Positions 5,660 to 64,000 of a stretch of 64,000 bases of DNA are shown in pieces. The translations under genes were made by a program, and so were the position numbers. Every line of letters starts with the position of its first letter. Position 1 is the first letter of the stretch. The stretch lies in the NCBI RefSeq assembly GCF_009900765.1, contig NZ_JAAABL010000010.1, forward strand, positions 1 through 64,000, read 5' to 3'. The notes beneath the pieces were generated by a model. It did not search any database and was not told the DNA's origin. It saw only the letters and a list, made by a program, of their open reading frames with translations. The DNA comes from Rhodovarius lipocyclicus. Its GTDB lineage: Bacteria; Pseudomonadota; Alphaproteobacteria; Acetobacterales; Acetobacteraceae.

Positions 5660-6457
5660 ATGAGCGCCAACCCCACCGCCGCCCTGCTGATCATCGGCAA
5701 TGAGGTGCTGAGCGGCCGCACCCGCGACGCCAACCTGCAATTCCTGGCCACGGAGCTGGGCGCGCTCGGCATCCCGGTGCGGGAAGTGCGGGTGATCCCG
5801 GATATCGAGGCCACGATCGTGGGCACGGTGAATGAGCTGCGGGCGAAGTTCACCCATGTGTTCACCACCGGCGGCATCGGGCCGACGCATGACGACATCA
5901 CCAGCGAATGCATCGCCAAGGCCTTCGGCGTGCCGTGGGAGGTGCATCCGGTGGCCCATGCCCGCATGGCCGCCTATTACGCCAGCCAGAACCCGCCCAC
6001 GGAATTCAACGCCGCCCGCCTGCGCATGGCCACCATGCCGCGCGGCTGCGTGCTGATCGAGAACGAGGCGACCGTCGCCCCCGGTTTCTCGATGGAAAAC
6101 GTGCATGTGATGGCCGGCGTGCCGCGCATCATGCAGGCGATGTTCCGGGCGCTGGCGCCGAAGCTGGAACGCGGCCAGCCCGTCGTCTCGGCGACCGTGC
6201 ACGCCGATGGCGTGTTCGAGGGCCAGATCGCGGACCCGCTGGCGGCGGTGCAGGCGCGCTTCCCGGCGCTGGATGTCGGCAGCTATCCGTATTTCCGCCC
6301 CGGGCCGGTGCGCGGCGGGGTGGCGCTGGTGGCCAAGGGCACCGATGCCGCCGATGTGGCCGCCGCGGCGGACCAGATCGAGGCCCTGCTGCTGGCCGTG
6401 GGCGGCAAGCCCGTGCGCGGCGAGCCCAAGCTGGACGACAACACGACTAAGGGGTGA
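5660..6457 (+). CDS. Molybdopterin-binding / CinA N-terminal domain protein
   Basis: 265 residues with a MoCF_biosynth (MoaB/MogA/CinA N-terminal) fold. Visible motifs are LLIIGNEVLSGRTRDAN near the start and FTTGGIGPTHDDITSE at about 69-84, which form the molybdopterin/nucleotide pocket in this family. The C-terminal nicotinamide-nucleotide amidase domain of full CinA is absent, so a CinA-like pyrophosphatase role (ADP-ribose or NMN-related substrates) or a cofactor-binding role is possible. One base separates it from the GNAT-Nudix stop, and pairing with a Nudix enzyme would fit nucleotide housekeeping. Its 3' end overlaps the convergent next gene by 11 bases. Confidence 0.88.
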   Translation: MSANPTAALLIIGNEVLSGRTRDANLQFLATELGALGIPVREVRVIPDIEATIVGTVNELRAKFTHVFTTGGIGPTHDDITSECIAKAFGVPWEVHPVAHARMAAYYASQNPPTEFNAARLRMATMPRGCVLIENEATVAPGFSMENVHVMAGVPRIMQAMFRALAPKLERGQPVVSATVHADGVFEGQIADPLAAVQARFPALDVGSYPYFRPGPVRGGVALVAKGTDAADVAAAADQIEALLLAVGGKPVRGEPKLDDNTTKG

Positions 6458-57365: not shown

Positions 57366-57405
57366 GTCGTTTTTCCCTAGGACGTCAGGCTTAGGTAAAG
57401 AAGTT

Positions 57406-57496
57406 CTTCTTTTTCTGTAGAAAAAGAAGCAAAAAGACTTTTTTGAGTTCCCATAAACTCTCAAAAGTTTTTTGGTTCTTTTTTACAAAAAAGAAC
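57406..57496. repeat. AT-rich double-hairpin intergenic element
   Basis: A perfect 11-base stem (CTTCTTTTTCT / AGAAAAAGAAG, GT loop, 57406-57429) and a perfect 10-base stem (GTTCTTTTTT / AAAAAAGAAC, AC loop, 57475-57496) flank a less perfect inverted segment. The element is almost all A/T in a very GC-rich genome. I recall similar T-rich hairpins recurring between genes in Acetobacteraceae genomes; recognised from memory, not checked. It may act as a bidirectional terminator. Confidence 0.6.
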
Positions 57497-57508
57497 AAAT
57501 ACTCTTTT

Positions 57509-58708
<1,200 letters not shown>

Positions 58709-61023: not shown

Positions 61024-61512
61024 TCAGCGCCGGCTGGGCATCGCCGCCTGGGCGCGCGCGAACCCGTTGAAGGACAAGGACAAGGTGACCGGCTGATGCG
61101 CCGCGTCCTGGAACAGCAGCCGCGCGCCGGGGGGTTCCGAGCGCAGCTGCGCCAGCGCGTTGTCGGGCAGTTCCGCCATGGCGAAGCAGCCTGCCGGCAG
61201 GCAGCGCTGGAAGGCCAGGGTGAAGGACTGCCCCCCCGCCTCCACCCGCACGCCGGTGGGCAGATGCACGTTCAGCGGCACATGGGCCATCAGCAGCAGG
61301 GGCCCGGCATTGTTCAGCCGGCCGACGATGACCTGCGCCTGGGCGCGGCCCTCGGCGTTGTTCAGCACCGTGCCCAGCTCGCATTGCCGCTGGGGGCGGG
61401 TCTCGCAGCGCAGCGCCCAGTCGCCATAGGTGGCCTGGGTGCGTTCCTGCGCCAGGGCCGGACCGGCCAGCGCCGAAAGGACGAGAGCGGGGAGGAGGAA
61501 GCGAGACGCCAT
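61024..61512 (-). CDS. IalB-family (invasion-associated locus B) periplasmic protein
   Basis: 162 residues with a signal peptide (MASRFLLPALVLSALAGPALAQ). The mature protein begins with the family hallmark YGDWALRCE and carries four Cys (CETRPQRQC and CLPAGC) that likely form two disulfides. The rest is beta-rich (FTLAFQRCLPAGCFAMAEL). The name derives from Bartonella, but in free-living alphaproteobacteria the family is widespread and of unknown role. It is a single gene between the beta-oxidation gene's upstream region and the RND pump gene. Confidence 0.85.
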   Translation of the reverse strand: MASRFLLPALVLSALAGPALAQERTQATYGDWALRCETRPQRQCELGTVLNNAEGRAQAQVIVGRLNNAGPLLLMAHVPLNVHLPTGVRVEAGGQSFTLAFQRCLPAGCFAMAELPDNALAQLRSEPPGARLLFQDAAHQPVTLSLSFNGFARAQAAMPSRR

Positions 61513-61552
61513 GCGAGGAATGCCCTGCCGGAGGAACCGGCCGGCATCCTGC

Positions 61553-61614
61553 CACAGTTCCGGGGGGCTGAGGCCCCCCAGGGGTCACAGTTCCGGGGGA
61601 CTGGCGCCCCCCGG
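61553..61614. repeat. Two tandem hairpin modules with a 14-base direct repeat
   Basis: A 14-base sequence (CACAGTTCCGGGGG) occurs at 61553-61566 and again at 61586-61599. Each copy leads into a hairpin: GGGGGGC/GCCCCCC (61562-61579) and CCGGGGG/CCCCCGG (61593-61614). The element fills most of the 108-base gap after the RND-TolC gene on the minus strand and may serve as its terminator. Confidence 0.55.
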
Positions 61615-61620
61615 CACTCA

Positions 61621-64000
61621 TCACGGAACCGCGCCCAGCGCCTGGTTCAGCTGCGCGCGGGCGCGGTTGACGTTCACCGCCGCGCGCGCCTCCTCCACCT
61701 GCGCCTCCTGCTGCAGCTGCCGCACGCGGAACAGGTCGAAGGCCCCCGTCTCGCCGCTGCGGAAGGCGCGGCGGGCGATGCCCTCCTGCTCGTTCGCCAC
61801 CGCCAGGCGCTGGCGGGCGATGCGCAGGTTGTTCTCCGCCACCCGCAGCCCGGTCTCGGCATAGCGCAGCCCGGCCTCCAGCAGGCGCTGGGATTGCGCG
61901 AGCTCGGCGGTGGCCCGCGTCACCTCGCTCTGCGCCTCCGCGCGGCGGGGCAGGTTGCGGGCCTCCGTGGCGAAGGGCAGGCGGAAGCGCAGGCCGATCG
62001 AGGTGTTGTCGTTCTGCCCGAACCCGCCCTCATAGCGGGTGAAGACGCCCAGCTCCGGATTCTCCCGCGGGGTGGCGGCGACCAGCCGGCCGCGCGCGTT
62101 CGCGGCCTCCAGCGCCGCGCGGGCGGCGGCCAGCTGCGGGTGGCGCGCCAGGCGGTCGCGCGGCAGGGGCGTCTCGGGCGGCAGAACGGGGCGCTGGCCG
62201 CCGGTCAGGGTGGCGTATTCGGCCTCCAGCTGGTCGGCGCGGGCATCGGTCTGGGCGAAGGTCAGCTCGGCGGCCAGGGTTTCGTTCTGGGCCAGCAGCG
62301 CCTCGGTGGGCGGCACGTCGCCCAGCTCGGCCCGGCGGCGCAGGTCGCGGGCGATGTCGCGGCTGGTCGCCAGGCGCAGGCGCGCCACCTCCGCCTCCCG
62401 CCGGGCCAGCGCGGCTTCCCAATGCGCGTCGCGCACCCGGCCGGCCACGGCCAGGCGGCGGGCGAGCACCCTGCCCTCCAGCGCCAGCACATCGGCGTTC
62501 ACGCTCTCGGCCAGGGCGGTGCGCTGGCCGGGCAGCCAGATGGGCGCTGCCAGGTCGATCTCCACCTCCCGCGAGGGCTGACCGTTAGCCCCGCCGCCGC
62601 GCGTGCCGCTCAGCGCGGTGCCGGAGACGGAGGGCGGCCCCGCGAGCGCCGAGCGCGGCACGATGCCGCGCGCCACCGCCGCCTCCCGCTGGGCCAACAG
62701 GCCCCGCAGTTCCGCGTCCAGGTCCAGGGCGGCGGCGACGTGGGCGGCCAGCGTGCCCTGGCTTTGCGCCTGGGCCGCGCCCGCCCCCAGCAGCAGCGCG
62801 GCCAGCACCACTGCCGCCACCGGGGCGGGTTTCGGCGCCCGGGCGCGCGGCAGGGCGAAGCGCTCATATAATATGGGCAGCAGCAGCAGGGTCAGGGCCG
62901 TCGCCGTCACCAGCCCGCCGATCACCACCACCGCCAGCGGCTTCTGGATCTCGCTGCCCGGCCCGGTGGCGAACAGGAAGGGCACCAGCGCGAAGGCCGC
63001 GATGCAGGCCGTCAGCAGCACCGGCGTCATGCGCCGCCGCGCGCCCTCGCGCACCGCCTCGGAGAGGGTGAGCCCCTCCTCCGCGATCAGCCGGTTCACG
63101 GTGCTGATCAGCACCACGCCGTTCAGCACCGCGATGCCGATCAGCGTCAGGAAACCCACGGAAGCAGGCACGGAAATGAACTCCCCCGACAGATACAGGC
63201 CGAGCACGCCGCCGATCAGCGCGAAGGGCACGTTGCAGAACACCAGCGCCGCCTGCCGGACCGAGTTGAAGGTCAGGTACAGCAGCAGGAAGATCACGCC
63301 GAGCGCGAGCGGCACCACCATGGCCAGCCGGGCGGAGGCACGCTGCTGGTTCTCGAACTGCCCGCCCCAGACCAGCGAATAGCCGGGCGGCAGCTGCACG
63401 CGCTGGGCCACAGCCGCCCGCGCATCGGCCACGAAGCCCACCAGGTCCCGCCCGCACACGTTGGACAGCACGGTGGCGAAGCGCTCCACCTCCTCGCGGA
63501 TCACCTGGATCGGGCCTTCCTCCTCCCGCACATCGGCCACCTGGCTGAGGGCGACGGTGCCGCCCCCTGGCAGGGCGATGGGCACGCGCGCGAGGTCCGC
63601 CGCGGAGCGCCGGTTCGCGTCCTCGCCGCGGATCAGCAGCGGGATGCGGCGATCGCCCTCCAGCACCACGCCCACATTGCGCCCATCGACCCACACCCTC
63701 AGCGCGTCCTGGATATCGGTGGCGTTCAGGCCGAAGCGGCCGGCGGCGAGGCGGTCGGGCTCCACCGTCAGGTATTTCATGCCGTCATTGCGCAGCGCGA
63801 ACACGTCGGTGGAGCCGGGGATGGCGCGGATCGCCTCCGACACCTCCCGCGCCAGGCGGTTCAGTTCGGGGATCTCGGCGCCGAAGATCTTCACCACCAC
63901 ATCGCCGCGCGCGCCGATGATCATCTCCTGCACGCGCATGTCGATGGGCTGGGCGAAGGAGTAGGAAATGCCGGGAATGCCCTCCAGCACCTCGCGCAGC
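61621..64000 (-). CDS. Heavy-metal RND efflux pump fused to a TolC-type outer-membrane factor, 5' end missing
   Basis: The frame is open to the window edge, so this is the C-terminal part. Bases 64000 to about 62860 encode the second half of a CusA/CzcA-type pump: VVVKIFGAEIPELN, VWVDGRNVGVVLEGDRRIPL, the GFLTLIGIAVLNGVVLI helix, and SEIQKPLAVVVIGGLVTATALTLLLLPILYERF. Without a stop, 62823-62857 encode a basic linker and 62773-62822 a hydrophobic segment ending AAQAQSQ. The rest to 61621 is a TolC/CzcC-type outer-membrane factor with repeated coiled-coil helices (AHVAAALDLDAELRGLLAQREAAVARG and onward). Normally these are separate genes in the same operon. The membrane-fusion protein gene is not in the window. 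Confidence 0.85.
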   Translation of the reverse strand, partial: LREVLEGIPGISYSFAQPIDMRVQEMIIGARGDVVVKIFGAEIPELNRLAREVSEAIRAIPGSTDVFALRNDGMKYLTVEPDRLAAGRFGLNATDIQDALRVWVDGRNVGVVLEGDRRIPLLIRGEDANRRSAADLARVPIALPGGGTVALSQVADVREEEGPIQVIREEVERFATVLSNVCGRDLVGFVADARAAVAQRVQLPPGYSLVWGGQFENQQRASARLAMVVPLALGVIFLLLYLTFNSVRQAALVFCNVPFALIGGVLGLYLSGEFISVPASVGFLTLIGIAVLNGVVLISTVNRLIAEEGLTLSEAVREGARRRMTPVLLTACIAAFALVPFLFATGPGSEIQKPLAVVVIGGLVTATALTLLLLPILYERFALPRARAPKPAPVAAVVLAALLLGAGAAQAQSQGTLAAHVAAALDLDAELRGLLAQREAAVARGIVPRSALAGPPSVSGTALSGTRGGGANGQPSREVEIDLAAPIWLPGQRTALAESVNADVLALEGRVLARRLAVAGRVRDAHWEAALARREAEVARLRLATSRDIARDLRRRAELGDVPPTEALLAQNETLAAELTFAQTDARADQLEAEYATLTGGQRPVLPPETPLPRDRLARHPQLAAARAALEAANARGRLVAATPRENPELGVFTRYEGGFGQNDNTSIGLRFRLPFATEARNLPRRAEAQSEVTRATAELAQSQRLLEAGLRYAETGLRVAENNLRIARQRLAVANEQEGIARRAFRSGETGAFDLFRVRQLQQEAQVEEARAAVNVNRARAQLNQALGAVP

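Follow-up and report, generated by a model that had tools for sequence, protein, structure and literature searches.

In Rhodovarius lipocyclicus, a predicted heavy-metal RND pump and a TolC-type outer-membrane factor (OMF) are encoded in one uninterrupted frame, and fusions of this kind seem to have arisen about four times within one clade of Acetobacteraceae. We consider it quite likely, judging from conserved sequence features, that the product is a polyprotein carrying an internal signal peptide, with signal peptidase I cleaving at AQA/Q (the slash marks the predicted cut), and that it came about by repeated fusion of adjacent genes. Two functional parts would probably result from this cut. 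The gene was noticed in a sequence-only reading of a 64,000-nucleotide stretch (hereafter the window; positions 1 to 64,000 of contig NZ_JAAABL010000010.1).

A continuous frame joins pump and outer-membrane factor

The minus-strand frame from 63999 to 61621 contained no stop between the pump end (ILYERF) and the TolC-family OMF. The window boundary cuts the fused gene, leaving 61621..64000 (minus strand) inside and the start codon outside, while contig C10 (86,172 bases) holds the whole gene from the ATG at C10:65925 to the stop at 61621 (C10:61621-65925, 1434 aa). The encoded protein begins with the RND pump; a linker, short and basic, leads to a segment that resembles a signal peptide and ends in AQA/Q, and the OMF follows. 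The open frame and both family matches bore out the sequence-only reading that the frame runs unbroken from pump to OMF; its placing of the pump end near 62858 held as to where the fusion lies and was off in the exact position, as F1023 of ILYERF ends at 62857.

The in-window C-terminal part of the pump, up to F1023, occupies 62857..64000 on the minus strand (TIGR00914, PF00873). In the profile search, TIGR00914 (CusA/CzcA) matched aa 1-1028 with 978 bits against a cut-off of 701, and the nearest solved structures, ZneA and CusA, were matched over the full pump length. By these matches, the pump part is a complete CusA/CzcA-type (HME) RND transporter. The residue aligned with what we take to be the third metal-binding Met of CusA is not Met. 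After the last pump helix come, on the same minus strand, the basic linker ALPRARAPKPAP (62821..62856) and the hydrophobic segment VAAVVLAALLLGAGAAQA (62767..62820; KD hydropathy 2.2 over 17 residues), the putative former signal peptide of the OMF and a candidate 13th helix. The predicted cleavage at the AQA/Q boundary falls between 62767 and 62766 (minus strand), at the end of VAAVVLAALLLGAGAAQA, followed by the predicted mature OMF of 381 aa (61624..62766, minus strand; PF02321).

With the whole fusion as the query, Pfam OEP matched the C-terminal part with 95 bits (cut-off 22), and the OMF part alone scored 101 bits in two stretches. The OMF sequence search against the PDB gave no match. 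Foldseek matches of the OMF AlphaFold model were TolC, VceC, OprM and CusC, with TolC and VceC at the top. OMFs carry two copies of a repeat made of a helix, a beta-hairpin region, a long helix and a further helix; model helices 79-148 and 272-337 fit the 67-residue H3/H7, in a model with pLDDT 68, disordered hairpin regions and a global TM of 0.2-0.3; a second look with VIA-align returned mixed helical matches, and an AlphaFold2 model of the 792-aa pump-OMF piece (pLDDT 44) was set aside. Judged by the OEP score and the TolC-family structures favoured by Foldseek, the C-terminal part is a TolC-family OMF.

The fusion is found in further genomes and is under selection

A search of other Acetobacteraceae, which the sequence-only reading had proposed, found the fusion in four more Rhodovarius genomes and in seven genomes of the sister genus (g45), giving 12 fused genomes in total, five of Rhodovarius and seven of g45. 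Among nine Rhodovarius genomes, it was intact over aa 1-1434 in three besides the window genome (G000), with identities to the window protein of 82% in R. crocodyli (strain CCP-6), 72% in G200 and 68% in G201; in a fourth, G204, the fusion junction lies on a single contig. The junctions of the Rhodovarius fusions vary in length and sequence, which excludes one shared artefact. Between the window and R. crocodyli, the pump part had a dN/dS of 0.31 and the OMF one of 0.28, and across all tested pairs the values ranged over 0.07-0.31 and 0.08-0.28, respectively. Both halves are thus under purifying selection, with the OMF value after fusion close to that of the pump. A chance open frame in GC-rich DNA was rejected, since both halves score as families and share one frame in five Rhodovarius genomes, and also because both are under purifying selection.

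In relatives the two genes are separate and for the most part in different frames, and a one-base error could fuse them. That an assembly or sequencing error joined two genes here is nevertheless scarcely credible, given the fusion in four further Rhodovarius genomes (68-82% identity for the intact copies) and in seven g45 genomes, with junctions of differing length and sequence. The four Rhodovarius genomes refute assembly error, which the sequence-only reading had kept as its alternative.

Adjacent genes appear to have fused repeatedly

Of 14 orthologous loci in other Acetobacteraceae genera, 13 have pump and OMF as adjacent genes in different frames, the pump stop lying within a few bases of the OMF ATG (mostly ...AE-TGA). 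At the remaining locus, G059, they share a frame but are kept apart by a TAG codon and by not less than about 0.3 kb. A tandem pair of OMF-like matches, each with 34% identity to the query, was seen in this genome at G059:C236:9790-12191. The separate OMFs of these genera carry N-terminal signal peptides, nearly all ending in AxA/Q, and the fused VAAVVLAALLLGAGAAQA with its following Q occupies the position of the signal peptide in unfused relatives. Methylocystis rosea also has pump and OMF as two genes. The window genome itself encodes other HME pumps, at least two, whose nearby OMF genes lie in separate frames.

Sixteen g45 genomes carry the pump, seven of them fused and seven verified as separate; in the remaining genomes, one contig ends at the junction and one was unparsed. 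The tree of 28 pumps, and likewise that of pump plus OMF, contained four state changes, all forced by well-supported branches, with four fused groups: the window with R. crocodyli, G200 with G204, G201 alone, and the seven of g45. G595, whose contig ends at the junction, was scored as separate in this tree and may be fused. At its contig end (L121) the frame of the pump tail stays open through a long linker and reaches a hydrophobic run, possibly another independent fusion. Monophyly of the fused form in the first tree was rejected (p-AU 0.001 for the pump).

About four independent fusions within this clade is the simplest reading, the direction of change being taken from junction sequences. 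Parsimony alone gives the four changes no direction, and a single early fusion that was split again several times is a competing account of the history, though not of the mechanism. We regard it as rather unlikely, because the outgroup junction, a pump end of PAE or AAE, mostly as GGAG-TGA, ahead of the OMF start, persists in separate members inside the clade and could hardly have been restored by one split after another; repeated fusion is the likelier course for the same reason. Under repeated fusion, the adjacent gene pair would have been replaced about four times in the clade, probably through small frame-changing indels.

No further fusion was found among the sampled 385 alphaproteobacterial and 299 Pseudomonadota genomes, a search that covers fusions to similar OMFs, and those to dissimilar OMFs where the frame is long. 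Very long pump frames in five of the other Pseudomonadota (G785, G802, G735, G835 and G796) were rejected as candidates; these pumps end normally and the length comes from upstream read-through. The fusion had been called unusual for an alphaproteobacterium, and its rarity stands, although the sister genus g45 shares it.

The junction points to a probable internal signal peptide

All 12 alphaproteobacterial fusions keep the hydrophobic segment and small-x-small/Q, while the linker before the segment differs among them in length and sequence. Signal and cleavage site were predicted solely from hydropathy and the -3/-1 rule. The Q at +1 may be partly inherited, as it is also usual in unfused relatives. 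The stretch between AxA and the first OMF helix (H1) counts 5 residues in the window protein and 14 in R. crocodyli, and shrinks to a single residue in G201, G596 and G602, so the tether across the fusions is 1-14 residues. In OMFs, H1 belongs to the equatorial belt, at the middle of a barrel about 100 A in length that is hung from the outer membrane (PMC8277102). With so short a tether, an uncut chain cannot span from a segment in the inner membrane to an OMF in the outer membrane, and cleavage would therefore be needed if the OMF works in its usual place.

Our proposed mechanism begins with one precursor chain, a predicted heavy-metal RND pump followed by its own TolC-type channel, in which the old signal peptide of the OMF would be retained as an internal signal. 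The C-termini of RND pumps are cytoplasmic, as is established for the family. Because the pump ends in the cytoplasm and one more hydrophobic segment follows, the OMF would reach the periplasm: the last pump helix would leave the chain in the cytoplasm, and the next segment would insert N-in/C-out. Signal peptidase I would then cut at AQA/Q, and the free channel could insert in the outer membrane and meet pump and adaptor. Since one frame encodes both, pump and OMF would be synthesised in equal amounts; the equal stoichiometry proposed in the sequence-only reading may also hold for the final products. In this best explanation we infer the direction of change, the topology, the cleavage and the assembly into one pump. 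The internal signal sequence with signal peptidase release at AQA, suggested in the sequence-only reading, is the best-supported mechanism, its predicted site being kept in 12 of 12 fusions.

Two other accounts of the junction were weighed against cleavage. With its hydropathy (KD 2.2 over 17 residues) and the unbroken frame, the segment could stay as a permanent 13th helix that tethers an uncleaved OMF to the inner membrane. Such an arrangement is very improbable, however, with tethers of the lengths given above too short for an H1 at mid-periplasm and with the cleavage motif conserved in every one of the 12. The OMF might instead be made mainly as a separate product of an internal start, the fused frame being incidental; R. 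crocodyli does have GGAGGA before an in-frame GTG (Shine-Dalgarno-like, -9.5 kcal/mol) that keeps the whole signal peptide, and the separate relatives could plausibly use coupled re-initiation. Against this, the window, G200 and G204 are without a usable Shine-Dalgarno sequence before any start keeping the full signal peptide, the g45 fusions have no Shine-Dalgarno-start pair in common, and the OMF's own ATG is gone in the window, all of which makes an internal start improbable as the main source.

Comparison with Bacteroidota fusions and other known systems

Pump-TolC fusions in Bacteroidota had been named as a parallel in the sequence-only reading, and we confirmed 15 there. A TolC query in plasmids matched inside annotated CusA/CzcA pumps of Hymenobacter, Spirosoma, Fibrella, Pontibacter, Adhaeribacter, Flavobacterium, Chryseobacterium, Haliscomenobacter and Runella. 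In RefSeq, these fusions of about 1450 aa, including those of Flavobacterium, Spirosoma, Hymenobacter and Runella, are named 'CusA/CzcA family heavy metal efflux RND transporter'. In all 15 CusA-TolC fusions, a linker, a hydrophobic segment and small-x-small/Q precede the TolC domain (14 sites found by script, and that of Pontibacter actiniarum, ATA/Q, by eye, the script having misplaced the segment), whereas control windows of equal length had such a site at 29% of positions in the OMF part and at 9% in the pump part. In Bacteroidota, most proteins cut by signal peptidase I have Q exposed at +1 (PMC5837995). On the Hymenobacter sp. BRD128 plasmid (L080), the pump gene and the TolC gene lie in different frames and share 37 bases (6108-6144), an unfused case among many fused ones.

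The window protein shares with the Bacteroidota fusions a pump, linker, hydrophobic segment, small-x-small/Q and TolC domain in one frame; the adaptor gene, however, lies downstream of the fusion in Bacteroidota and upstream in Rhodovarius. The architecture is alike and the origin separate, since outgroup genera and members inside the clade are unfused, so that the Rhodovarius fusion was not inherited with that of Bacteroidota. The architecture is therefore already known there, and it is the repeated origin in Alphaproteobacteria that appears to be new. A search of the open-access literature for described RND-OMF fusions returned nothing relevant, which is weak evidence of absence.

CusCBA, CzcCBA and ZneCBA resemble the present system in that the whole length of the pump matches CusA and ZneA and a CusB-type adaptor adjoins it, but these systems make the OMF as a protein apart from the pump. 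CusC carries a lipid at Cys1, whereas the predicted N-terminus of the window OMF is Q. Another alphaproteobacterial chain, FbcH, the cytochrome b-c1 precursor of the respiratory complex in Bradyrhizobium japonicum, joins an inner-membrane protein to an exported one through an internal cleaved signal sequence. It is like the window fusion in combining inner-membrane and exported parts, and differs in being respiratory and in having a product that stays in the inner membrane.

Proteins of the inner and outer membranes normally take separate routes. We lean towards the view that RND pump-OMF fusion is a recurrent evolutionary route, taken about four times in Acetobacteraceae and also in Bacteroidota with the internal signal-peptidase site always kept, and that it serves as a polyprotein strategy by which inner and outer parts are made equal in number and in one place. 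If true, envelope biogenesis would include a natural polyprotein, one chain serving both membranes, and this would offer a ready test of whether co-production helps tripartite pump assembly; the fused and separate sister species left by repeated fusion would be natural pairs for comparison.

Neighbouring genes

The gene order is adaptor, pump-OMF fusion and IalB-domain protein. The CusB-type adaptor gene (RND_mfp, HlyD_D23) ends 3 nt upstream of the pump ATG, and the next gene downstream encodes the IalB-domain protein with its own signal peptide (61024..61512, minus strand; PF06776). In the gap between the fused gene and the IalB gene (61540-61620), two adjoining GC-rich stretches resembling inverted repeats, CCGGGGGGCTGAGGCCCCCC and GGGGGACTGGCGCCCCCC, each follow CACAGTTC. 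Elsewhere in the window, at about 57390-57510, an A/T-rich stretch coding for Phe and Lys separates two acyl-CoA dehydrogenase genes; the genome is otherwise rich in GC.
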